Positions 16,701 through 64,000 of a DNA stretch of 64,000 nucleotides are shown here, piece by piece. Made by a program: the position numbers and the translations under genes. Source of the stretch: Ulva prolifera (taxonomy: Eukaryota; Chlorophyta; Ulvophyceae; Ulvales; Ulvaceae); assembly GCA_023078555.1 (NCBI GenBank), contig CM041203.1, positions 5,168,538 through 5,232,537 of the forward strand. The letters are read 5' to 3'. Below the pieces are notes generated by a model. That model did no database searches and was not told where the DNA came from. It worked only from the letters and a program-made list of their open reading frames with translations. Numbering within the stretch: position 1 is the first letter of the stretch; each line of letters opens with the position of its first letter.

Positions 16701-18502
16701 CGAGCAGAACAGCCCATGCAGGCGTGACGCGCAATCGGCAACATGTGTGCAGGAACCAACTTCTTCATGCGTGCGCGGGCCGCGTTTGAGGTGTCGGAGT
16801 ACATGGAGGTCCAGGGCTACAAGGACGCGGCGATCGCGGCGGAGGCCGACGCGGCCGCAAACGGCGCCCCAGACGCGCAGGACCGCATCTCGGCGCTTGA
16901 GGGCGACCTCCACGCCGACGTCCCCATGATCTTCGCCGAGGACAAGATCTCGGAGGACATCGACCTCGGGTCGCGGCTGCACGCCGCCGGCTTCAAGGCC
17001 GCCTTCATCGCCGAGCGCCTCGCGACTGGAGAGGCATGCCCCCCCACTCACCCCTGGCGTGACTGTTCGTATTCTGGTGACCCTTCGTATTCCGGTGACC
17101 CTCACAGCGCGCGCGCATGCATGCAGACCCCGCTCGACCCCCGCGGCATGTGGCGGCAGCGCCTCCGCTGGTTCAAGGGCGGCCACCTCTTCCTGTTCTC
17201 GAAGAACTCGGTGTTCTTCAAGAGCGACAACCACCTCACGCTGTACCACAAGGCCCTCTACTTCTTCGGCCCGACGACGCACTTCATCATGTTCATCTTC
17301 GAGCCCTTCATCACGACGCTGCCCTTCATGTGCCTCGTGCTACGCATCTGCCCGTACGGCATGGACCCGATCCTCTTCTGGACACATGTGGGACACATTG
17401 GCATCTCGTTCTTTGCCTCCGTCTACGACCGCTCCTTCGACAACGTCCTCACCGGCATCTGCGCGAAGGGCGGCATCCGCATCCTCTACTTCACTGCGTT
17501 CAAGGCGTGCATCAACACGTTGATGGTCGCGATAGGGTACAAGCGCCCCGGCGCGTTCAAGATCACGCGCAAGGCCGGCGACATGGCCGGCGGCGAGGAC
17601 GGCCGCGGTGAAGTCGATGAGGAGATCAGCATCTCCACCGCGGACGACAGCAAGGTCAAGAAGACGCCGTCCAACGCGTCCGGGGACCGCCCCGGCGGGA
17701 GCGAAGACGAGCTGGAGGACGGCGCCGCCGCGGGCGGCACCAGCACCCCGGGCGGCCGCCAGCTCGCGAACGCCGGCCGCGTCGACAGTGAACTCTCGCT
17801 GCGCAACTCCGCGCTCGATCTCCCCGGCATGGCGCGCGCCAACGGCACCGCGTCCCCGGGCCGCGTCACCGGCGGCCGCAAGAAGAAGGAGCCCACCGGC
17901 GAGGAGGCCGCAGGGGCTGACCGCATGGACGACCGTGGCTGGCAACTCACTGACGTGCACGCATCCCTGTCGAAGGTCACCAACGTGCGCAAGAAGTTCA
18001 TGCCGCTGGACGGGACGCTCGACATCTGGGTGCTCATCATCCGCCTGCTCATCGGCCTCGTGGCGGCGGTGTTTGGAATCATCCGTCTAGTGAAGCGCGA
18101 CGCACTCATCCGCTGGGAGGAGGAGTCGACCCTCATCTGGCTCGCGATTGCCTTTGCCATTGTCGACTCAACTCCTGGCCTGCTGTACCTCGGGTGCGCA
18201 ACCCCCCTCCCCTGCATATCTCATATGACTAGTGGATATAACATTCCTGCACGCTATTAGCCCAGTCTGTCTGACAGCAGCGCCACCGGTCCGGGCGTTG
18301 CGGGCATTTCGCAGCGGAGCGAATGTCAGCGTCTGTTCGCCGGAATGTGATGGCATATATGTGTGTGCACAGGTACCTGGCGCTGTACTCGTGGGCGCCC
18401 CAGCTGCTCAAGGTATACTCTCCTCTGGTCCTGGCAATCGTCATCGGCGGTGTCACCTTCGTGGAGCTGCGTGTGATCGCGGGATACGTCTTTGACATCT
18501 AG
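7701..18502 (+). CDS. Cellulose synthase-like family-2 glycosyltransferase with SAM-like N-terminal domain
   Basis: Predicted integral-membrane enzyme that moves sugar from a nucleotide-sugar onto a growing beta-glycan, probably for wall or extracellular polysaccharide. Inferred exons: 7701-7959, 9414-10372, 12635-12871, 14628-14838, 16151-16504, 16753-17033, 17127-18193, 18373-18502. All phases match and the total is 3498 nt (1165 aa). Residues ~10-86 look like a SAM domain (WLSRHGV...MMGVTGKRAKKIIKDL). 87-400 is Pro/Ser/Gly-rich and probably disordered. Two membrane helices lie at ~407-426 and ~444-466. The GT2 core has CDDG (533-536), GKSANLN, MDCD (Asp608, Asp610), SED (740-742) and QRLRW (778-782), so the full D,D,D,QxxRW set is present. 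Further helices follow, and the end is YVFDI. About 55 extra residues separate GTNFF from SED. Intron 6 (17034-17126) begins GC. The link of exons 1-2 to the core rests on phase and donor match only. No close family name is claimed. Confidence 0.82.
14128..14233 (-). mobile_element. F2 retroposon, 54 bp, with 26-bp target duplication, inside glycosyltransferase intron 3
   Basis: A 26-bp direct repeat (starts AGCATCATAATTGCTTCC; one mismatch) lies at 14128-14153 and 14208-14233. Between them is a 54-bp body beginning TGTTTACAAAAGAGTGAACG. Read on the minus strand it ends in CACTCTTTTGTAAA. It is the shortest of three clean F2 copies and is inferred to be 5'-truncated. Confidence 0.7.
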
Positions 18503-31049: not shown

Positions 31050-31379
31050 TTAGTTCCTGTCACGAGGAGGGAACCTCCGCGGAGGCTCACGGTTCCTGCG
31101 GTTCCTACGTGATCGAACACGGACTACCTTGGAGTGAATAGCTGCGGAGATGCAGTAGTACACTTTGCGGTAGATCTTGGGAAGCACGTAGTTGTCGATG
31201 GTCGAGGCCTCCTGGATATCGCGGATAGCGGATGCATCAACGATGTTCCTGACAAGAAAGCGCTTAACTGCCTTGTCTTTGGGACAAAGCACGCCTGAGG
31301 CCTCGCAACGGACGCGGCGAACATGTCCGCGAGCCCCTGCGGGCTTGTTGCGTCCGTTGGCTCTTCTCTTCTTCGTCAT
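31050..31379 (-). CDS. 40S ribosomal protein S26 (eS26)
   Basis: Component of the small ribosomal subunit near the mRNA exit channel. Single exon, 109 aa, starting [12 protein letters not shown]. It then reads [48 protein letters not shown] and [12 protein letters not shown], and ends with a basic Arg/Pro tail ([12 protein letters not shown]). An in-frame upstream extension of 39 codons exists, but family proteins begin at this MTKKRR. In the usual family pattern two CxxC pairs bind zinc. Here each pair keeps only one Cys (Cys25 with Ser28; Cys76 with Ala79), so zinc binding is probably lost. Length matches the family (about 110-130 aa). The gene stands head-to-head with the ATG at 31470, 90 bp away. 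Confidence 0.93.
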
Positions 31380-31469
31380 GGTTGCTACTCTTTGAAAAGG
31401 GGCTGTAGCAGAATTGCTCGCCGATGATATGGAGCGCCTTTGTGTCTTTGTTTCGCTGGCTCTGCCACA
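31380..31469. promoter_or_regulatory. Putative bidirectional promoter / shared leader of RPS26 and the gene at 31470
   Basis: Only 90 bp separate the RPS26 ATG (minus) from the ATG at 31470 (plus), so the two transcripts must start within, or overlap, this interval. No TATA box was found. The interval contains AAAGGGGCTGTAGC and GATATGGAGCGCC. Confidence 0.45.
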
Positions 31470-31669
31470 ATGAGCCGGGAAGGGGGCCCATACCAAGCGG
31501 CGGCGTCACACCCCGGTATCCCGCAGAGCCTGCATGGCTTGGGTGCGTACCTGACGGAGCTCAGCATGCACAGGACTCAATTGGCAACGACCGCCTTCGG
31601 CCGACAGGGCAAATGGCAAAATGCGTCGATGGCGGGCGCTCTATTCAATCGGGTAGGCCCGGCTGCCTC
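31470..31669 (+). CDS. First exon of an unidentified gene
   Basis: The ATG at 31470 opens a protein-like exon ([15 protein letters not shown], then [19 protein letters not shown], then [17 protein letters not shown]). It ends at a consensus donor CCTC/GTAAGT at 31670, phase 2. I do not recognise the product. The next exon is uncertain. An exon at 31753 onward (after TTCCAG) has the right phase but no supporting similarity. A terminal-exon candidate at about 32708-32910 (reads RADHIAAVAGLQYDTQAA and KDRCEQLQSYQTLRG) has a different entry phase, so at least one exon between would be needed. Confidence 0.4.
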
Positions 31670-46064: not shown

Positions 46065-49000
46065 ATGAATAGGTTTTCTGGATCGGTTCATAATTTGGCC
46101 GCTTTGCAAGAGGCTAGCGACAGCGGCGCGGAAGCCTCGTTCCCGACGCTGTCTCAAGCTGCGCGCATGTCGCGCGCATCCCTCGATGAAGGGGCCACAT
46201 CCAAAAGGTGGGGTTTTCTTCGTGTTCTGGAGTTTTGTGCCTGATCTAGCTGGGTCAGCATGGCATGGACGCTGACGCGGAGCGCTGTTCACAGGATGGT
46301 CGTCGTCGCCAACCACCTGCCGCTTCGAGCTGTTCCAGATGGGACCGGCGGACACACATTCGAGTGGGATGAGGATTCTCTCATAGGGCAAGCTAAGGTA
46401 TTATATCTGTGGCCCTGTGATCACCGCTGGGGCTGACGTTGCCTGGCTAGAGCATGTGAGAAGCAACTTGCCTGCCCCGGCCAATCTGTCGACAAAAATC
46501 TTCAGCTCGTGCCGCAAATCTCATGTCAGTATGTCAATGGGATCCATGTAAGTATGTGGCCATTGTGGTGCAGGAAGGCATTGATCCTTCTTTCGAAGTC
46601 ATCTTTGTTGGCAGCCTCCCAGTGGACGTAAAACCTGAAACACAAGATGTGCGTTCCGCTAGCATGACTATGGCAAATCATCCTGAAATTACTGGCGTCT
46701 CTTACATGTCCATGTTCTGCCAGGCCTGCCAGTTGTCAGTAAGGCCTGGGCATTCACCTGCACAACTTCTGCCAAGTACAGATGTGCTTACTTCTTTTTG
46801 CCCACCAAACACCACCGCTTAATGCGCCATAACGCCTGTGCTAAGATGCTTGTAGCCCCATATCTTGTCCTTCGGCGACGTGTAGCTGCTGTATCACTCC
46901 CAGTACTGCATCGGGAACTCAGTAACATCCACCAGTGCATTGCAGCGCCTGGCAGAGCAGCTCCTCGCCTCCAACAAGTGCCTCCCCGTGTTTCTAGAGC
47001 CTGAGCTGCGGGAGCGCTTCTACAAGGGCTTCTGCAAGCAGCAGCTGTGGCCCCTGCTGCACTATGTGCTGCCCATGTCGCCCCACTCCCTCGGCAGATT
47101 CAACCCCGATTTCTGGCAATCATACGTCCGAGCCAACATGATGTTCGCCGAGCGCCTCACAGAGGTTGTTCGTCAGCACTGCGACTTTGTCTGGATCCAT
47201 GACTACCACCTGATGGTTCTGCCCAGCCTCTTGAGGCGAAGGCTCCACAAGGTCAGCCCTGCTCCTTATTCACCAGAGGCCCTGCCAACACACGGCACGC
47301 ACACCTGCCTCTACCCGAAGTCCAGTCCTGTGCGCTGCCTGTATTCTGCATTTGTAGTGTGCAGTTTTGTCCAGCCATGCAGTGCACAATGGCCTGACTG
47401 TATGGGTCACCAAGCCTGCCTGCCTGCAACCCAGAGACGAGGGCAGCGCCAGAGCTAAGCCTATGACACTGACTGTCATCGATCGCTGTAGCAGCACCTC
47501 TCTTGTGACCTCATCAGCAGCTGCCCGTCTGGTGGCTGACCTCAGCAGCTCCATTGACACACCGACGATCCAGAAACAATTGAGCTGCCTGAGTCACAAA
47601 TCATGTTCTGTGCCACTGTAGCAGCCTTGTTCCCTGTCAGGCTCACAATTCTCCCACGCCATCACGATTTACCATTCCTTGCTGTTATCTCTCTGGAATC
47701 CCTGCAAGGCCTCCCACTGACCTTGGCAGCCTAGCATAGTCCCGCATTGGTTGTATCTCTCTGCATGCCTCCTATCCAGGCACTCCCAGCCGCAATCTTA
47801 TTGTCAGCCGGGAACAGCTGCCTGTTTGTGCCCTCTCATGACACAGTCGCCTCATATGTGCGACCCTGTCCGATCGTAGCGCAAGCAGCAGGCGGGTCCT
47901 GGGTACATTCGCTCTCTAGGCCACCAGCACAGGCCCTGCCTAGGTTCGAGGGGGACCGCTGGCAGCCCTGCCTCCGCCTGCACCATGGAAATACACGATC
48001 GATAAACAATCAATCAGGTAGATGCCGCCCCTGGATCCAGGAGGCATTCCCATGTCAACCCCCCTGATTTTGTGCTTGGGCGGCTGCCCAGCACTCTTCA
48101 TCCCCCTGCCTACACATATGCCCTGCGCCGTGTGATGGCTGCAGTATCGCTCAGCTACGTGGCAGTGTCGGGTCGCTGTGCAGCATTTCCAGGTCTGCCA
48201 CCCAGTTATCAGACCTGAATATTCGGAATTGTCACATATGATCGGGCCCGATGACCCAACACTGGCGTGCGGTGCTACCTGCCGCCCCGACTCCGTCCTG
48301 GGAATACACAATCTCCCTCGGCGCGGCAGAACACCGTGCCCAGCACCCCCCTCCCTCCCGCTGCCGACCGTGCTGTGCGGCCCACGCCACACGCACAGCA
48401 GCAGCACCGGCTGTCGCAATCTTGCCGCAGATCGCAGTGCCCTCCCCCCTTCTCACAGTGCTGTGCGCCCCGAGGACAAGCCGTGCCCTCAGCAGCCACA
48501 GCAGCCCTCAGCAAGGCACCGGCACTGGCGTGCAGGTCGCGGTCGGCATCTTCCTGCACAGCGCCTTCCCCTCGTCCGAGATCTTCCGCGCGTTCCCGAA
48601 GCGCGAGGAGCTGCTGCGCAGCCTGCTCAACGCCGACGTCATCGGCTTCCACACGTTTGACTACGCGCGCCACTTCATCTCCTGCTGCTCGCGCATGCTC
48701 GGCCTCGAGCACTACACGAAGCGCGGCTCCATCCTCATGAACTACTACGGCCGCTCCGTGCACCTCAAGATCCTCCCCACCTGTGCGCCGCCCCCCCTCC
48801 CCGTCCCCACCCTCCGGTGTTCGCTGCTCGCTGCCACCTGCACTCTACAACCATACACCGGTGTGCTGTGTGTGCTCCGCTGAATGCCGGAGCGGGCGCC
48901 CACCCCTCTTCCCTGTGCGCTGAGTCCGCCCGCTTCGCGGCACCGCGGCCGGACGCGGGGTGACTCTGGACCTGTGCGCAACAACGCGCCCGAGGTCCTG

Positions 49001-52000
49001 CGCCACGGTGTCGATCATGTTGCTCCACACCCCCGCACCCCCGCACCTGTGCAGTGCCACCCATAGCCACAAGCACCACGGGGTCACGTGTGATCGCGCC
49101 CGCTGCCGTGGTTGCACCGAGCATGTGTGATTGCTGTGCTTCTGCATCTGTTCTGAGATGCACGTATGAGGCATCACCGACGGCTGCGCGCCGCACCGGC
49201 CAGTCATCGCAACGCCCCCACGCCACGATCGCCATGCACCGCGACGGCCGTGTGCCGCAATGGCCGTGCACCGCTGACAACCCCGGCGCCGGCGTGCAGG
49301 TGTGAAGCCGCAGCGCTACCTCGAGGGCTTCCAGTGGCCCGACACGAAGTGGCGCATCGGCGAGCTGACGAGCCAGCTGCAGGGCAAGACGGTGCTGCTC
49401 GGGCTCGACGACATGGACCAGTTCAAGGGCATCGAGATGAAGTTCCTCGCGTTTGAGCGCGTGCTCGACCTGCACGAGGAGTGGCGCGGCAAGCTCGTGC
49501 TCGTGCAGGTCACGAGCCCCCCGCGTAGCTCCAGCCAGGAGGTCAAGGTGCGGCCCCGGCCCGACTGTAGCACTGTAGTAGCACTGTAGTAGCTCTCCGC
49601 GGGCTGCCGTTAGAGCCCCCCCCCCCCCCCCCCCCCCCCCCCGCGCACATGCATGTGTGGCGTGTGCGCCTCCTTGGGTGCGGGGTCATTGCATCACTGC
49701 TCAGGGTCGCTGCTCAGGGTCGCTGCTCAGCGTGGTGTGGGACTTGCACGCGTTGTGTGTGGCGCAGCCGCATGCCGGAGGGTGAGTTGACAGCCGTGGT
49801 GGGGGTGGCCTGGGGTTTCCAGAATTGGCAGGTGGTCGCGTAATGCATGCTGTGCATGCTGTTGCTTTGGGCGAGCGAGGTGCTCAGGCGGCGCGGCTGT
49901 CTGTACCTCAACTCGCAGGCGCCTCAAAGGCAGACTGTGTCCCCCCATAGCCTCTGCAGTGGGCGAGCATTGATGCGCCACGTGTTTGCGCCGGTGCTGC
50001 CAGGCGCCGTAGCCTGTCTGCCGAGCGGCAACGCCGCTCACACGCACACGCACGCGCCTGGTGGTAGAAGAATTAACAACAACAGCAGCAACGACAACAA
50101 CAGCAACAACAACACCAGCAACAACAGCAACAACACAAAGGCAGTCTGGGTGTGGTAGTGAGCCGCCTTCGTGCGCCTGCAGGACCTCGCGGAGTTTGTG
50201 CGCACAACCGCGGAGCGCATCAACAAGCGGCACGGCAACCCGGCCGTCGCGTACACGCCGCTGATCCACGTCGAGCAAGCCGTGCCGCTGCACGACCGCC
50301 TCGCGTACTTCGCGATGGCGAACGCCGTCGTCGTGACCGCGACGCGCGACGGCATGAACCTCGTGCCGTACGAATACATCGTCTGCCGCCAGGGCACCCC
50401 CGGCCTGACGCACCGCACGTCGATGCTCGTCGTGTCAGGTGCGTGCTGCGTGCTGTGGGTGAAGCCGGCAGGATCCATAAAAAAAATTGCGTGAGCCTGT
50501 GCCATGGTATGGAAGAGCGCCATGCCAGTATGAGGTAGTGGAAGCACACGCGTTCATACGGGGCCTCTTGTTGCATGGCGTGTCGGTGCGGGGTGCAACG
50601 GACGCACTGCGTTCTGCGGATCGAGGGCAAGCTGTGTGCGTGTCGGCGCATTTGCATGCTGCGGTGTGGACTGCAAATGCTGGGCCAATCTGTTGCCGAT
50701 GTGTGTGATGTTCCGGCATTGACCGCCTGTCTGCAGCGTGGCGTGTGACCGCCCGTTTCCCCGACCTGCTCCGCACGTCTCTCTGTGACAACTGCCCGTT
50801 ACGCATGCTGTGCATGCTGTGCACGTGCCCCCTGTCCCGAGGCCGGTTGGACCACCACGCAGCACAGTGCTACGCATGCTGTGTTACAGTGGGCCCTGCG
50901 GTGCCTGATCGTGAGCAAAGCGAGCCGCGAGGTGCATGGTCCAACGGCACCACGCCACCCACACGAACGTGCACCTCCTGCAAATGCATGTGCTCGTGAA
51001 CTGCACAGCGTGGTGTATGGGAGCACCGCGTTGCCCTCCGCCTGACGGCGGCGCCGTGCCGTGCAGAGTTCGTGGGCTGCTCGCCGTCGCTGTCGGGGGC
51101 CCTGAGGGTGAATCCCTGGAGCATCGACAGCATCGCCGACGGCATCTACGCCGCCGTCAAGACGCCCATCGCCGAACAGGTCCGCCCCTCGCCCCCCTGC
51201 CCCCTGTCATATATTCCTGGTGCCTGGCAATACGGACCCATGCACGGCTCCAAGCAGCTCAGGCACCAAGCTTGACGAGCATGACCTTTGCTCGTGCCCC
51301 CATCACCAACCCACCCATCCGCCGCTACGCTGGGTGGGTGATTCCTGAGTTTGTAGTGCGCCAGTGGCGCCGTTCACGGTCGCTACTGTCTGCTAGCGCG
51401 CTCCTCCCGCATGTGGGCGCCACTCCGTGTGCAGCGCACAGCGCGGGGGTGATGCATGACCGCCGGTGCAGGTTGCGCGGCACGAGAAGCACTGGGCGTA
51501 CGTGCGCGAGCACACAGTCGGGCACTGGAGCAAGAGCTACACGAGCTACCTCGTCGCCGCGACGGAGGGCCACGACCATATGAAGACGTACAGCCTCGGC
51601 CTCGGCCTCGACACCTTCCGCATGGTCGCGCTCGACCCGAGCTTCCGCAAGCTCGACATGGACTGCATGCTGCACGCGTACAAGGCCTCGAAGCGGCGGC
51701 TCATCCTCTGCGACTACGACGGCACGCTCGTGCCCTCCGACACGGTGCGTGCTGCGCGTGCTGTGACCCTGTGGTTACAAAAGAGTGAACGGGAGACGAC
51801 AAACACCAAAACCGAATCCCATCCGGATCGACAGCAACGCATACACACACGATTCCATCACAGCCGCGCCCACCCTGTGAGAGCAGCTTCGTCACCGTCG
51901 GGGCGCATTGTGTCTCTGACGACTGTTGGCCCGCCCCTGCACCTTGTTGTCATGTGGAGCCCCTTGCGCAATGGGCCGTCTTTCCATCCGTATGTGACGC

Positions 52001-53284
52001 TGGGCCCTCCCGCACTCAGGCCGGCGTGCGTGGAGCCCAGGCACTGCGCCCGATCCGCGCCCATGCAGCGTCGCCACGCCTCGAGTCGTTGACGCACCAT
52101 ACACATCGCACACTGGCACACTCCCCCACGCCTCCGCTCTGACCCTCCTCACTCGGGTTCGAGTGCACAGGCTACTCAGCCGCGCTGGGATGATTGTCCA
52201 GCCGATGCCGATGCGATGTGTGTGCAGGTGGACATGCGGCCGAGCGAGGACATCAAGCAGCTGCTGCGCTCCCTCGCGGAGCACCACTCCTTCTTCATCG
52301 TCTCGGGCCGCGTCTGCGAGGAGCTGCAGCCGTGGTTCGCCGACGTGCCCGCCGTCGGCATCGCGGCTGAGCACGGCTTCCGCGTCAAGGAGCCCGGCAG
52401 CGGGGACTACGCGGAGCAGTACCCCGGCCTCGACTTTTCGTGGAAGGACATCGTGCGGCCGATCATGCGCATGTACGCAGAGAGCACGGACGGCACGCAC
52501 GTGCAGGAGAAGGCGTGCGGCATGACGTGGGCGTACTCCGCGGCCGACCCCGACTTTGGCCGCTGGCAGGTGCGGCGCTGCGCGCTCATGCATGCGTGTT
52601 GTGTTGTGGCACCAGCCCGAAACTTTGGCCGCGGTCTGCGCGGGGGGCTGCGTGTGTGCCGAAGGCATGCATACGCTTCGGGTGGCGCGCTTGGTGCCCC
52701 GCGGGAGGTGCGAGCGCGGTCGTGAGCGCTGCCAGCATCTGGCCGGCGCCGAATTTCGGGTTCACCCAACCCGCAAACCACATTTGCATGGCCCTAGACC
52801 AGTCGGCGCATCGTTGGCGTGCATCGAGGCGCCGTGTCACCAATGCATGGTGTGAATGCATGCGTTGCCCTCACGCATGTGGCCGCCGCTGCAGGCGAAG
52901 GAGCTCGTGGACCACCTCGAGAGCGTGATGATCGGCGAGGCGATCGAGATCGTGAGCGGCCATCTCTACGTCGAGGTCAAGCCGAAGGGCCTCACGAAGG
53001 GCGCGACGGTGACGCGCCTCTTCAACGCCACGCAGCCCGACTTCGTGCTCTGCCTCGGCGACGACCGCTCCGACGAGGAGATGTTCAACGTCTTCAACGA
53101 GCAGCGCCACGACGCGACGGTGTTTGCGTGCACCGTCGGCCAGAAGCCGAGCCAGGCGCACTACTACGTGAACGACAGCAAGGGCGTCGTCTCGCTGCTG
53201 AGTCAGCTGATCGCGCAGGCGGGCATCGAGTTCGGGGCGGCCACCGGGGCGGCGGGCAAGGCGCGCGACGAGGTGGCGTCGTGA
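46065..53284 (+). CDS. Class II trehalose-6-phosphate synthase/phosphatase (GT20 plus TPP domain)
   Basis: Inferred exons: 46065-46207, 46295-46397, 46574-46648, 46946-47251, 48536-48782, 49300-49547, 50183-50438, 51067-51179, 51472-51744, 52228-52569, 52895-53284. Every phase agrees, giving 2496 nt (831 aa, close to the usual ~850). The N-terminus is MNRFSGSVHNLAALQEA. The GT20 domain (about 48-560) contains RMVVVANHLP, DFVWIHDYHLMVLP, FLHSAFPSSEIFR, GFHTFDYARHF, GLDDMDQFKG (326-335), RDGMNLVPYEYIVCR and FVGCSPSLSGALRVNPW. The phosphatase domain has DYDGT (578-582), VSGR (613-616) and GDDRSDEEMF (757 on), so its HAD motifs are intact. In the synthase part, the Arg of the catalytic-type N-R-L-P and G-V-D-R motifs is His and Asp here, as in plant class II proteins, which usually lack synthase activity. 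A regulatory or phosphatase role is therefore more likely than trehalose-P synthesis. Intron 9 carries an F2 retroposon. Confidence 0.92.
48163..48264 (-). mobile_element. F3 miniature inverted-repeat element, copy C, in TPS intron 4
   Basis: 102 bp with inverted ends CAGTGTCGGGTC and GACCCAACACTG. The interior TCGGGCCCGATGACC and GAATATTCGGAATTGT is the reverse of copy B at 43655. Confidence 0.75.
50074..50136. repeat. AAC/AGC trinucleotide microsatellite in TPS intron 6
   Basis: Runs of AACAACAACAGCAGCAACG and similar words over about 60 bp, 47 bp upstream of the exon 7 acceptor. Confidence 0.9.
51766..51879 (-). mobile_element. F2 retroposon, 98 bp, in TPS intron 9
   Basis: ACCCTGTG at 51766-51773 and 51872-51879 flanks a body starting TTACAAAAGAGTGAACGG and continuing ACAAACACCAAAACCG, AATCCCATCCGGATCG and further. 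It is the longest of the three clean F2 copies and shares the constant end. Confidence 0.65.
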
Positions 53285-56541: not shown

Positions 56542-59219
56542 ATGTTTCAAGCAGCGCAGTCGCGGATGACCTGTCCCCAGATCAAGCCTCCTCGACATGC
56601 CAGAAGCATGCACAGGAGTTCTAGAGCCGCTGCTATAGCTCAGCTGGCAGGCGCTCACCGTACAGTGATGCCGTCTGCAGTTGGTATTTCGCGTGTTGCT
56701 CGCATCCTGCTGCAAGATGATTATGACTTCACGCAGCAGAGGCTTGATGGAGAGACTGTATTCCTGAGAGTTAACTTCAATGTGCCTCGGTCTGGTGAGG
56801 GCGAAGTGCTAGACTGGTCGCGAGTCGATTCGGTACTTCCGACGATCCGAGTTTTGCAACAGAAGGGAGCCCGCATCGTCGTGGGGTCGCACCTTGGTGG
56901 CTCGCATGTTCACTTTAAAAATGAGGCCGTCAAAGCAGACTACTCGTTGAAGATTGTCGAAGAGAGGCTCTCCAGGGCCTTTGGGAAGGCGTTCCAAGGC
57001 GTTACGGAATCACCCACAGGTCCAGACACATCTCAGCGAATCGCAGATTTAGCACCTGGAGAGGTAATGATCCTCTTCAATCGATCGACGGTTTCTGCTG
57101 GGTTGTTGTTCGCCAGTAAAGCCATCGCCTCGGGGATGACGACTGAAGCTGCGGCTTATCGTGCGTTTGAAACAGCACCTATCCGAGGCTGTCTGCTAGT
57201 CACCTTCCATTTCAAGTCGCAATCGCGAGGCACCGCATGGCCTTATATGTAGTGCTTATGTACAAGGTTGTGACATCATACATTCTCGCGTGCAGATCCT
57301 GCTGCTGGAGAACCTGCGGCACCACCCCGGCGACACATCCGGCGACCCAGAGCTCGCCAAGCTGCTGGCTCAGCAAATCGACGTCTTCATCAATGATGCT
57401 TTCGGTATCAGCCACAGGCATGATGCAAGTTCCGTCGGCATCTGCGAACATGCGCCCCGCCTGTTTCCCGGTCTATTGATGCGCTCGGAGCTGCAGCGCT
57501 TGCTGTCTTGCCTAGATCCTCCGCAAAGGCACGTTCGATCCCTTTCTCCGCTGGCGTGTGTGCCTTTTCGGGCTGACGTGGACCTTATCCACCTCCCATC
57601 CCTACGGAGTGCTGCATATTTCACGGCCAGGACGAGTCACGCCATATCCTTCCCGTCCTTTTATCCAGACTGAATCATATCTCATGGTACAGTCATACTG
57701 TACGTGCTGAACGTATATGCAGACCTTTCGCAGTGGTCATCGGCGGGGACCGTGTGCCCGAGACTCTGAACTGCCTCAGCGAAGCCATTTTCAAGGCCGA
57801 CAAAGTCATCGTCGGAGGCCTACCCGCGTACACGCTCCTCGCAGCCCGCGGGCACTCGCTAGGCAGCACGCACGTAGACAAGTCCTACCTCGACCGCGCT
57901 GCGGGCCTCATCCGCGCTGCACGCAACCAGGTGAGCTGCTCTAGCCACACCTGCACTGTCTTGCCCAGTCGATGGACAAGCAAAATGACCACACCCCCGG
58001 TCACGTGTCCTGCTGCTCTGGGTGATCTCTAATGTTGCATCCTGATGTGTTGACCCTGTGTCTCTCCTGCTTTGACCAGTTGCTGTGGCATGGATGTATG
58101 CATGCTGCACCGCGGCGACACCACCCCACCGCGACACCACCGCGACACCACCGACACCACGCAGCAGGTGACAATCACAAAGGGCTTGATCAAAGTGCAT
58201 CCTGAACCTCGTCCAAATCCACGCACAATGCAGGGAGTGGAGCTTGTGCTCCCGACCGACTTCATCCACGCCCCATGCCACTCCGGCGTCCCCGGTAGCC
58301 ACACCGGCTCCCACAGCTTCTCAGCCAACGTCGACGTCACCTCTGTCTCGCTCGACCCCTTCGACTCGGCCATCGGCACCCTCGACATCGACACATCCTC
58401 CTCCACCACCCTGCCCAGCAGCGGCGGCCCTGCATCGGCCTACCACGGCGTGCGGGTCGACAGCTCCAGCAGCGGCGCATGCATCCCAGATGGCAGCGCG
58501 GCCGCCGACATCGGGCCTGCGACACGGGACGCGTACGCCGCCGCGCTGCGCGGCTGCAAAACGATCCTCTGGACGGGCCCGATGGGTGCGTGTGAGGGGG
58601 CCAGCTTCTCGGGGGGGACCCTGGCGGTGGCGCAGGCCATCGCGGCAGAGACGACCAGCGGCGCAACGTCCATCGTCGGCGGTGTGTTACTTCCATCTTC
58701 CTTCTGCGATCTCGTCAGGTTGGCATCACCGATGGCCACGACGAAACCCATGCATGGAGGCCCCCCCCCCCCCCAAACTTCATCTGTTCCTCTCTTCATA
58801 CAGACAATGCTGGGGCTTATGGGTAGTCCATTCTTGTGGAGTGAGGCTGGTGTGGCCATGCCTCACCACAAGTGCATACCGAACCAGAGATGAGCCGTCT
58901 TCCCAACACGTATATGCACCTCTTTCACCTCCCCCATGTCACACAGCATCTACCTGTCATGCCTTACAGTCGCCATCCGCCGCACGCTGTCCCTCTCGAC
59001 GCGCCACACACCGCACGCATGCATGCAGGCGGCACGTCGGTGGCCGCGGTGCGCAACGTCGGCATGGACAACCGCTTCACGCACCTCCTCACGGCGGGCG
59101 CCGCGATGCTCTCGTTCCTCGACGGCCGTGAAGTTCCCGGTCTGTGGGCGCTGCTGCGCCACGACGACGTCGACGCGCAGGCGCAGCAATACGCTCCCTC
59201 CGCCTCCCTCGACATGTAG
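56542..59219 (+). CDS. Divergent phosphoglycerate kinase homologue, possibly plastid- or mitochondrion-targeted
   Basis: PGK transfers phosphate between 1,3-bisphosphoglycerate and ADP. Inferred exons: 56542-57063, 57296-57528, 57723-57930, 58234-58681, 59029-59219 (1602 nt, 533 aa). Intron 2 starts GC. Family landmarks in order: RVNFNVP (76-82), SRVDSVLPTI, SHLGGS (116-121), ENLRHHP (179-185), INDAFGISHRHDASSVG, VVIGGDRVPETL, GVELVLPTDF, DIGPAT, WTGPMG (434-439), GGGTSVAAV (470 on). Compared with ordinary PGK, the Asp of DFNVP is Asn78, the Arg of SHLGRP is Gly120, the Lys of GGAKVSSK is Arg262 and the Asp of GGGDS is Thr473. A Ser/Thr/Gly-rich insertion of about 70 residues lies between GVELVLPTDF and DIGP. 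The first ~58 residues are Arg/Ser/Ala-rich, like a transit peptide. A start at 56566 is also possible. Full PGK activity is doubtful. Confidence 0.82.
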
Positions 59220-61350: not shown

Positions 61351-64000
61351 TCATGACTGCGCTCCTTGATCATGGGCAAATCCACAACCTTCGAAGTTGA
61401 GGTGCGTCAGCTGGGCACGCTCACGGATCTCCGCCGGGAAGTGAGTGAGGCCTTGGCAACCGCTGATGTCGAGGTGTGCCAGCTGGGCGCAATCACCGAT
61501 CTCAGCCGGGACGTGAGTGAGGTTCTGGCACCCACTGAGGTTGAGGCGCGCCAGCTTAGCGCAGTCACCGATCTCCGCCGGGACGTGAGTGAGGTTCTGG
61601 CAGTTACTGAGGTCGAGCTGCGTCAGCTGGGCGCAGCTACCGATCCCCTGCGGCAGGTGCGTAAGGTGTTCGCACTTGCGGAGGTTGAGGTACTTCAGCT
61701 GGGCGCAGTCACCAATCCTCTGTGGGAGGTGCGTGAGGTGTTCGCACCAGCTGAGGTTGAGGCGCGCCAGCTGGGCGCAGTCACCGATCGATTCCGGGAG
61801 GTCCGTGAGGCATATGCACCAGCGGAGGTTTAGGTGCATCAGCTGGGCGCAGTCACCGATCCTCTCCGGGACGTGAGTAAGGTTCTGGCACCCACTGAGG
61901 TCGACGTGCGTCAGCTGGGCGCAATCACCGATCTCCGCCGGGACGTGAGTGAGGTTCTGGCAGTTACTGAGGTCGAGCTGCGTCAGCTGGGCGCAGCTAC
62001 CGATCCCCTGCGGCAGGTGCGTAAGGTGTTCGCACTTGCGGAGGTTGAGGTACTTCAGCTGGGCGCAGTCACCAATCCTCTGTGGGAGGTGCGTGAGGTG
62101 TTCGCACCAGCTGAGGTTGAGGCGCGCCAGCTGGGCGCAGTCACCGATCGATTCCGGGAGGTCCGTGAGGCATATGCACCAGCGGAGGTTTAGGTGCATC
62201 AGCTGGGCGCAGTCACCGATCCTCTCCGGGACGTGAGTAAGGTTCTGGCACCCACTGAGGTCGACGTGCGTCAGCTGGGCGCAATCACCGATCTCAGCCG
62301 GGACGTGAGTGAGGTTCTGGCACCCACTGAGGTTGAGGCGCGCCAGCTTAGCGCAGTCACCGATCTCCGCCGGGACGTGAGTGAGGTTCTGGCACCCACT
62401 GAGGTCGACGTGCGTCAGCTGGGCGCAATCACCGATCTCAGCCGGGACGTGAGTGAGGTTCTGGCACCCACTGAGGTTGAGGCGCGCCAGCTTAGCGCAG
62501 TCACCGATCTCCGCCGGGACGTGAGTGAGGTTCTGGCACCCACTGAGGTCGACGTGCGTCAGCTGGGCGCAATCACCGATCTCCGCCGGGACGTGAGTGA
62601 GGTTCTGGCAGTTACTGAGGTCGAGCTGCGTCAGCTGGGCGCAGCTACCGATCCCCTGCGGCAGGTGCGTAAGGTGTTCGCACTTGCGGAGGTTGAGGTA
62701 CTTCAGCTGGGCGCAGTCACCAATCCTCTGTGGGAGGTGCGTGAGGTGTTCGCACCAGCTGAGGTTGAGGCGCGCCAGCTGGGCGCAGTCACCGATCCTC
62801 TGTGGGAGGTCCGTGAGGTGTTCGCACCACCTGAGGTCGAGGCGCGCCAGCTGGGCGCAGTCACCGATCCTCTGTGGGAGGTCCGTGAGGCATATGCACC
62901 AGCTGAGGTCGAGGCGCGCCAGCTGGGCGCAGTCACCGATCCTCGCCGGGACGTGAGTGAGGTTCTGGCACCCCCTGAGGTTGAGGTACGCCAGCTGGGC
63001 GCAGTCACCGATCCTCTGTGGGAGGTGCGTGAGGCATGCGCACTCCCTGAGGTCGAGGTGCGTTAGCTGGACGCAGTCACCGATCGTCTCCGGGAGGTGC
63101 GCGAGGTTGAGGCACCAACCGATTTCGAGGTGCGTTAGCTGGGTGCAGCCACCGAGCCTCTCCGGGAGCTCCGTAAAGCCGACACACCAGCTGAGGATGA
63201 GGCGCGTCAGCTGGGTGCATTCGCAGATTGAGTCTGGAATGCCTTCCAGCCTCCTGCACCCGCGGACGCTGATGCTCCGCAGCATGCTGCAGCTACCAAT
63301 CCTGTCCGGCAGCCGCACAAGATCAATGCACTCTTTAATGGCTAGGCAAGCCAGCTGGGTGCAATCGCAGATGCTGTCCGGCAAAACGGTGATGTCGTCA
63401 GATGCCAGCAGCAGAAGACGTGTCAGCTGATTGCATTGGCCGATGCTGTCTGGCAGACGCGTCACATATGCATGCGAGAGCGATACGTCTTCCAGTTGGC
63501 CCATGGAAAAAAGCGCATCGAGCACTGACGAAGCACCGGTGCAATCAGTCAAGCGCAGATACCTCAGTCTTGGCCTTTGCCATACGGACCGCTCCTGGAG
63601 CAGGCCGGTCACATCGCCGTCAGTTACCGACAGGTACCGCAGCCTGAGCATGCTTGGCCATCCCTCTTGGCTGCCCCCCACATGCGGGGATGACACTGTC
63701 CTGTCAACATCGCCAGTGTCAATGATGCATGCCCGCAGCTGGTCGGCAGCGGTGCAGCCAGGTAGCCTCTGCCTTGGCCAGGAGGGCCCTTGCATGCTGA
63801 TGTAGCGCGCATCACCAATATCAGCCCTTCTGCTGTCGTCATAGATGCGCCTCGCCTTGGCCTGCCGTGCGCGGCTCCGCGCGAGGGTGTGAAGAACATC
63901 GTGCATGTAGTACAGAGGCGTGCCCCACACATCGGCAGTTCTATGCTGCTCCACTGACACGAGGCTCCGCTGCACGAGCTCTTTAAGCTTGAACTTTGCT
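61351..64000 (-). CDS. NB-ARC-LRR (NLR-type) protein, C-terminal part; runs off the right edge
   Basis: An open minus-strand frame enters from the edge at 64000 and stops at 61351 (about 883 residues visible). It begins AKFKLKELVQRSLVSVEQ and YYMHDVLHTLARSRARQ. This is the end of an ARC2/winged-helix region with the MHD motif that controls nucleotide state in plant NLR receptors. The P-loop part would lie beyond the window. After a linker come about 28 leucine-rich repeats of 24 residues with consensus IGDCAQLxxLxLSxCxxLTHLP, plus a degenerate last one, ending CGFAHDQGAQS. Such proteins act as intracellular sensors in plant immunity; the ligand here is unknown. No introns are visible in this part. 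Several repeats are almost identical, indicating recent internal duplication. It could alternatively be a STAND-type regulator with a different N-terminus. Confidence 0.85.
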   Translation of the reverse strand, partial: AKFKLKELVQRSLVSVEQHRTADVWGTPLYYMHDVLHTLARSRARQAKARRIYDDSRRADIGDARYISMQGPSWPRQRLPGCTAADQLRACIIDTGDVDRTVSSPHVGGSQEGWPSMLRLRYLSVTDGDVTGLLQERSVWQRPRLRYLRLTDCTGASSVLDALFSMGQLEDVSLSHAYVTRLPDSIGQCNQLTRLLLLASDDITVLPDSICDCTQLACLAIKECIDLVRLPDRIGSCSMLRSISVRGCRRLEGIPDSICECTQLTRLILSWCVGFTELPERLGGCTQLTHLEIGWCLNLAHLPETIGDCVQLTHLDLRECACLTHLPQRIGDCAQLAYLNLRGCQNLTHVPARIGDCAQLARLDLSWCICLTDLPQRIGDCAQLARLDLRWCEHLTDLPQRIGDCAQLARLNLSWCEHLTHLPQRIGDCAQLKYLNLRKCEHLTHLPQGIGSCAQLTQLDLSNCQNLTHVPAEIGDCAQLTHVDLSGCQNLTHVPAEIGDCAKLARLNLSGCQNLTHVPAEIGDCAQLTHVDLSGCQNLTHVPAEIGDCAKLARLNLSGCQNLTHVPAEIGDCAQLTHVDLSGCQNLTHVPERIGDCAQLMHLNLRWCICLTDLPESIGDCAQLARLNLSWCEHLTHLPQRIGDCAQLKYLNLRKCEHLTHLPQGIGSCAQLTQLDLSNCQNLTHVPAEIGDCAQLTHVDLSGCQNLTHVPERIGDCAQLMHLNLRWCICLTDLPESIGDCAQLARLNLSWCEHLTHLPQRIGDCAQLKYLNLRKCEHLTHLPQGIGSCAQLTQLDLSNCQNLTHVPAEIGDCAKLARLNLSGCQNLTHVPAEIGDCAQLAHLDISGCQGLTHFPAEIRERAQLTHLNFEGCGFAHDQGAQS
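61589..62308 (-). repeat. Duplicated 360-bp block (five LRR units) inside the NLR-type gene
   Basis: The stretches 61589-61876 and 61949-62236 translate identically in all frames compared, showing a direct duplication with 360-bp period (5 x 72 bp). Part of the same block recurs from 62597. A separate 144-bp (two-unit) duplication covers about 62280-62560. Confidence 0.9.

Follow-up and report, generated by a model that had tools for sequence, protein, structure and literature searches.

A diverged phosphoglycerate kinase-like gene of Ulva prolifera that probably encodes a pseudoenzyme

Can a phosphoglycerate kinase (PGK) homologue that has replaced residues normally invariant in its family still transfer phosphate, has it been kept for some other purpose, or is it a duplicate on its way to decay? 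This question is raised by a gene of the green alga Ulva prolifera, located on contig C8 within a 64-kb stretch of genomic DNA (64,000 nucleotides, hereafter the window). An earlier note on this DNA had described it as a PGK homologue with all fold landmarks, an intact frame over five exons and at least four replaced key positions, and had put it forward as a candidate pseudoenzyme or neofunctionalised paralogue. The gene was modelled as follows, a paralogue on contig C7 (C7 PGK) serving for comparison:

56542-59219, + strand: PGK-like gene, five exons, 533 aa, no internal stops
56542-57063, + strand: exon 1 (codons 1-174), coding for the N-terminal extension and the beginning of the PGK N-domain; donor GTAATG
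57064-57295, + strand: intron 1, phase 0, same position as in C7 PGK
57296-57528, + strand: exon 2, LLENLR and NDAFG..HR blocks, R122 and R170 kept; 233 nt, the C7 length
57529-57722, + strand: intron 2, phase 2, same position as in C7 PGK
57723-57930, + strand: exon 3, start of the C-domain, GGDRVPETL against GGAKVKDKI in C7 PGK; 208 nt, the C7 length
57931-58233, + strand: intron 3, phase 0, same position as in C7 PGK
58234-58681, + strand: exon 4, Ser/Thr-rich insertion and WTGPMG block
58682-59028, + strand: intron 4, phase 1, same position as in C7 PGK
59029-59219, + strand: exon 5, GGG|TSVAA block, C-terminal part and short C-terminal tail, stop codon included

The absence of internal stops from the spliced 533-aa model agrees with the intact frame claimed earlier, and splice sites were usable at all introns. 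For intron 2, the best fit to the homologues (QR|PF) placed a GC donor at 57529; eight in-frame donors were available, among them a GT at 57556, 27 bases downstream, which adds nine residues to give a protein of 542 aa, and the key residues were unaffected in every alternative. The assignment to the PGK fold was likewise borne out. Pfam analysis of the 533-aa protein returned PF00162 (PGK) with an E value of 2.8e-101, in two stretches covering both domains, and all 47 PDB matches at E <= 0.001 were named phosphoglycerate kinase, the best having an E value of 3.1e-82. No Pfam family besides PGK, and no fused further domain, was found in this protein at E <= 0.01. The short C-terminal tail was absent from both the plastid PGK of the alga and C7 PGK, and two further features set the protein apart:

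56542-56712, + strand: 57-residue N-terminal extension (R/K 9, D/E none) with a composition like that of a transit peptide
58295-58489, + strand: Ser/Thr-rich insertion, GC3 0.89, also possible as an in-frame 195-nt intron (GTAGCC..TCCCAG)

Judging by its composition, the N-terminal extension may be an organelle-targeting peptide; residue 43 is an internal in-frame Met, close to the position at which C7 PGK begins. The Ser/Thr-rich insertion had been noted before as preceding the C-terminal nucleotide-binding elements and is indeed found there, with Ser and Thr making up 24 of the 70 residues from PTDFIHAP to the DIGP block. The span from PTD/PID to DIGP/DVGP comprises 85 residues in the PGK-like protein, 40 in C7 PGK and 31 in the plastid PGK. 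GC content by codon position within the insertion (0.52, 0.62 and 0.89) differs from that of the four introns and thus supports a coding role, with in-frame splicing-out being possible. In C7 PGK the same place is occupied by a Cys-rich loop, six of the eight cysteines of this protein lying in the 40-residue stretch before the DIGP block (L010:5817-6129); these vicinal cysteines could confer As(III) binding or redox sensitivity.

A family search and a protein search of the 88.9-Mb genome each arrived at three PGK loci. Besides the PGK-like gene and the five-exon C7 PGK, the following locus was found on the same contig as the PGK-like gene:

C8:3008208-3009930, - strand: plastid PGK, three introns

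In both the plastid PGK and C7 PGK, all 21 checked active-site positions were of the usual kind. Normal PGKs are thus present elsewhere in the genome, and the idea that the PGK-like gene is the only PGK of the alga was ruled out by these two loci with intact residues. A phylogenetic tree was then considered, built with 72 of the 113 rows of a filtered panel (the truncated row L116 was left out and the bacterial rows are a convenience sample). The PGK-like gene and C7 PGK were sisters with support of 100/99, away from the plastid PGK, which grouped with 10 cyanobacterial rows, also at 100/99; since the algal genes are the sole eukaryotic sequences in it, the tree speaks for the two genes belonging together among the given rows and not for their wider kinship. 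Branch lengths were 0.77 for C7 PGK and 1.41 for the PGK-like gene, and the two proteins shared 44% identity over 423 aligned residues. Their four introns matched in place and phase (0, 2, 0 and 1) and exons 2 and 3 were equal in length. The sister position and the shared introns together support the earlier suggestion of a paralogue. As C7 PGK and the panel keep the residues in question, the simplest account places their replacement on the PGK-like gene's own branch. The plastid PGK (L009) has a phase-0 intron before VTLLEN, at the aligned place of intron 1 (57064-57295) of the PGK-like and C7 genes, a case of shared ancestry or parallel gain.

In order to describe the replacements, the protein was compared with PGK proteins from 148 loci (147 in prokaryote genomes and one in a viral contig), collected with no motif required; after two short and four duplicate rows were dropped, 142 were aligned, one of them from the viral contig. 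An earlier panel of 113 rows had been assembled with motif filters favouring canonical sequences. For the residues named below we assume the conversion from Geobacillus to mammalian numbering to hold, and we take K215 to be among the nucleotide-phosphate residues and R38 to belong to the basic patch of the 3-phosphoglycerate (3PG) site. The changed positions were:

56773-56775, + strand: Asn78 for Asp23 (3PG site); D in 142/142 panel PGKs
56899-56901, + strand: Gly120 for Arg65 (3-phosphate contact, domain-closure salt bridge); R in 122/142, K in 20/142
57751-57753, + strand: Arg262 for Lys215; K in 142/142
57763-57765, + strand: Thr266 for Lys219 (beta-phosphate contact; Lys201 in Geobacillus numbering); K in 141/142
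58573-58575, + strand: Thr435 for Asn336 (alpha-phosphate contact; WNGPMG to WTGPMG); N in 141/142
59034-59036, + strand: Thr473 for Asp374 (Mg ligand; Asp352 in Geobacillus numbering); D in 141/142
59088-59102, + strand: L491, A493 and A495 for S392, G394 and G396; HLLTAGAAM against HISTGGGAS in the plastid PGK

The four replacements named in the earlier note (N78, G120, R262 and T473) were reproduced with exactly the same numbering, at the places of D23, R65, K215 and D374. Its count of at least four is now extended by two further core losses, K219 to T266 and N336 to T435, and also by S392L and G396A. In the panel, S392 is S and G396 is G in 141 of 142 rows, with one gap each; the change of G394 to A also occurs in 11 of the 142 rows. 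At the nucleotide and Mg2+ positions K215, K219, N336 and D374, the protein thus carries R, T, T and T, a set at odds with an active PGK. N25, R38, H62, R122, R170, E343 and the GGG loop were kept, and at the 3PG site (D23, N25, R38, H62, R65, R122 and R170) five of seven residues were left, D23N and R65G being the changes. According to PMC7729029, the nucleotide phosphates are bound by the counterparts of K219 and N336 and Mg2+ by the counterpart of D374; phosphoglycerate is contacted by D23 and R65, the latter also assisting domain closure. With phosphate and Mg2+ contacts replaced, phosphoryl transfer by the PGK-like protein would be very unlikely. Binding of a phosphoglycerate ligand would be possible with five of the seven site residues left, weakened by R65G and D23N.

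Alternative splicing that brings back the canonical residues, which the earlier note had envisaged, was ruled out for the six core positions: D23, R65, K215, K219 and N336 all lie within exons, and none of the 63 in-frame alternative splicings of intron 4 restores GGD[ST]. Of the 63 columns in which at least 95% of the panel agree, the PGK-like protein departs at 15, C7 PGK at 4 and the plastid PGK at none; every panel row departs at fewer than 15 (the highest is 10, in the truncated L116, and the next 8). Losses fell on 7 of 18 ligand-contact columns and 8 of 45 others (p = 0.10), and on 7 of 18 against 10 of 52 with the earlier filtered panel (p = 0.12), so that no significant concentration at ligand contacts was obtained with either panel and the case rests on which residues went rather than on an enrichment statistic. 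One panel row, the PGK of a Bathyarchaeota MAG (L085, CP070730.1), carries K219A, N336S and D374H and is the sole row of 142 without these three residues; it is possibly another degenerate or altered PGK.

The genomic surroundings of the two sister genes were then compared. The sole genome matches to ArsJ were four pieces (E <= 0.001) at C7:5291696-5294215, 10.6 kb from C7 PGK, none of them over the cut-off in a search that matched the model exon by exon. The GAPDH locus with the highest-scoring piece in a search with the arsenate GAPDH model was C7:5224532-5227585, about 64 kb beyond ArsJ; matched in the same exon-by-exon way, it stayed under the cut-off, its best exon piece reaching 149.7 of 450 bits. 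Contig C8 gave no ArsJ or GAPDH match in these genome searches, which ruled out that the PGK-like gene itself lies in an arsenate cluster. Three GAPDH copies with identical scores were also seen (C3:9337066-9338623, C4:5351417-5352974 and C4:5380146-5381703, the two on C4 being 28.7 kb apart), reflecting recent duplication or an assembly effect.

A neighbourhood of ArsJ, GAPDH3 and PGK3/PGK4A has been published for green algae (Foflonker and Blaby-Haas 2020, PMC7826186). That paper reports arsenate sensitivity for a Chlamydomonas reinhardtii pgk3 mutant, states that what PGK3 does as an enzyme is not known and names exceptions to the neighbourhood rule. Being intact and near ArsJ, C7 PGK is likely the PGK3/PGK4A-type gene of an arsenate-detoxification neighbourhood, a placement by neighbourhood alone. 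In view of the named exceptions, the missing ArsJ on its own does not exclude the PGK-like gene from PGK3/PGK4A membership.

The window itself was surveyed with Pfam through 20 hand-picked frames of the 75 listed open frames, exclusive of the PGK-like gene's own exons. Nine of the 20 had a family over the cut-off, and neither ArsJ nor GAPDH was among the families of these frames. Four neighbours may be listed, the first of which is probably one fusion gene:

46886-53281, + strand: consecutive frames with trehalose-6-phosphate synthase and phosphatase domains, lying upstream of the PGK-like gene
61354-63999, - strand: 882-codon open frame with many leucine-rich repeats, downstream and running to the window end
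31053-31505, - strand: ribosomal protein S26e
16728-18257: frame with the top coding score in the window and a glycosyltransferase group 2 match of modest strength, 32.2 bits against a cut-off of 27

We consider it probable that the gene is a diverged duplicate of C7 PGK whose product performs no phosphate transfer between ATP and 3PG and, if it has a role, serves in binding, as a scaffold or in regulation. The main rival holds that it is a recently silenced pseudogene, a duplicate without constraint in which a stop or frameshift is still to come. Its longer branch (1.41 against 0.77 for the sister) speaks for this reading, as do the 15 changed columns of 63, more than in any of the 142 panel rows, the GC donor at intron 2 and the lower GC3 of exon 1 (0.53). 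In a simulation of unselected drift that started from the C7 coding sequence and allowed substitutions only, 8.5% of 200 runs were still free of stops at 80% identity, so a young pseudogene could look like the PGK-like gene. However, when the same drift was continued to 44% identity, stops averaged 7.1 and each of 200 runs had at least two, which makes an old decayed pseudogene unlikely. Also against silencing stand the frame that stays open for 533 codons, the usable splice sites of all introns, the 48 of 63 conserved columns that were kept, the coding periodicity of the insertion and the asymmetry of identity with C7 PGK by codon position (0.56, 0.67 and 0.41 over 423 codons). This asymmetry and the lack of stops suggest that selection acted on the protein through much of its history as a separate gene; such selection would cover the divergence as a whole, the periods before and after active-site loss being inseparable where third positions have diverged this far. 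The earlier verdict that this is not a decaying pseudogene agrees with old decay being unlikely; recent silencing we regard as unlikely but as a live alternative. When viral contigs were searched with the 533-aa protein, no orthologue was found; a query with the three-protein alignment gave one PGK relative.

Alternatively, the protein could be a working enzyme of changed chemistry or specificity, such as a phosphatase, a hydrolase or a kinase acting on a phosphoglycerate-like or arseno-phosphoglycerate ligand. Retention of N25, R38, H62, R122, R170, E343 and the GGG loop fits with this, and so does the location of the sister gene near ArsJ, but the protein lacks both lysines, the Asn and the Mg2+-binding Asp that serve the nucleotide, and has Gly for R65. 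No active PGK is known to carry this set; the archaeal row that lacks three of these residues, L085, is itself uncharacterised here. We find an altered enzyme distinctly improbable. Still slimmer is the prospect of a non-catalytic binder, carrier or hydrolase for phosphoglycerate-type acyl phosphates or for 1-arseno-3-phosphoglycerate in the ArsJ-GAPDH-PGK arsenate route, perhaps in another compartment. An active PGK that merely tolerates its replacements seems the faintest prospect: the changes of D to N and K to R are mild, but two loci with intact residues are already present and, according to PMC7729029, K219T, N336T and D374T together remove phosphate and Mg2+ contacts.

PGKs without catalysis have precedents in other organisms. 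The kinetoplastid PGK-like proteins (PGKLs) of Trypanosoma brucei and Bodo saltans are described as catalytically dead in PMC4106842 and PMC7729029. According to these papers, several are larger with added domains (89, 104 and 110 kDa), small ones of 28 kDa and of 270 residues are also mentioned, and the T. brucei PGKL is attached to the flagellar axoneme and dispensable in procyclic cells. Kinetoplastid PGKLs share with the algal protein the PGK fold, the loss of key catalytic residues and a host that also has active PGKs; the algal protein differs in having 533 aa with PGK as its only Pfam domain. The algal gene would likely be independent in origin from the kinetoplastid PGKLs. Dynein heavy chain matches were present in the genome as 22 pieces, and the alga can therefore probably make flagella.

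Closer at hand, the green-algal PGK3/PGK4A proteins, as presented in PMC7826186, resemble the PGK-like gene in being non-canonical paralogues apart from the plastid PGK, and its sister C7 PGK lies 10.6 kb from ArsJ. The PGK-like gene differs from them in lying on a contig without an ArsJ or GAPDH match and in having lost active-site residues that C7 PGK keeps. A term search of that paper for catalytic, active site, residues and inactive gave no occurrence. The plastid PGK of the same genome has the fold in common with the PGK-like protein and differs by its intact active site, its cyanobacterial grouping and its three introns, one of which corresponds in place to intron 1. In open-licence papers, a search for inactive or pseudoenzyme PGKs gave the kinetoplastid works and no green-algal case, and one for PGK3 with arsenate gave PMC7826186 alone. 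A dead PGK is thus already known as a kind; within the open-licence literature searched, a green-algal example that coexists with a PGK3/4-type sister appears to be new.

Taken together, the lost residues argue for the earlier proposal of a pseudoenzyme, which the PGK-like gene probably encodes. We propose that it is a degenerate duplicate of the alga's second, non-canonical and intact PGK, that on C7. After duplication, the copy would have lost the residues for nucleotide phosphates and Mg2+ (K215R, K219T, N336T and D374T, with the S392/G396 loop changed) together with two 3PG contacts (D23N and R65G), while the remainder of the basic patch (N25, R38, H62, R122 and R170) is still in place, as is the greater part of the conserved PGK core. 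The copy also has the Ser/Thr-rich loop, the basic N-terminal extension, maybe a targeting peptide, and the C-terminal tail. Its role, if any, might be conjectured to be that of a binding, scaffold or regulatory protein, perhaps one that still holds a phosphoglycerate-like ligand or is a partner of an active PGK or GAPDH.

If expressed and conserved, the gene would represent a green-lineage pseudo-PGK derived from the arsenate-neighbourhood PGK rather than the plastid one, with an origin probably separate from that of the kinetoplastid cases. Such a gene would also indicate that this PGK family is able to shed catalysis and yet be kept. The intact gene on C7 and the putatively dead one on C8 would form a natural pair for probing non-catalytic roles of algal PGK3-type proteins.
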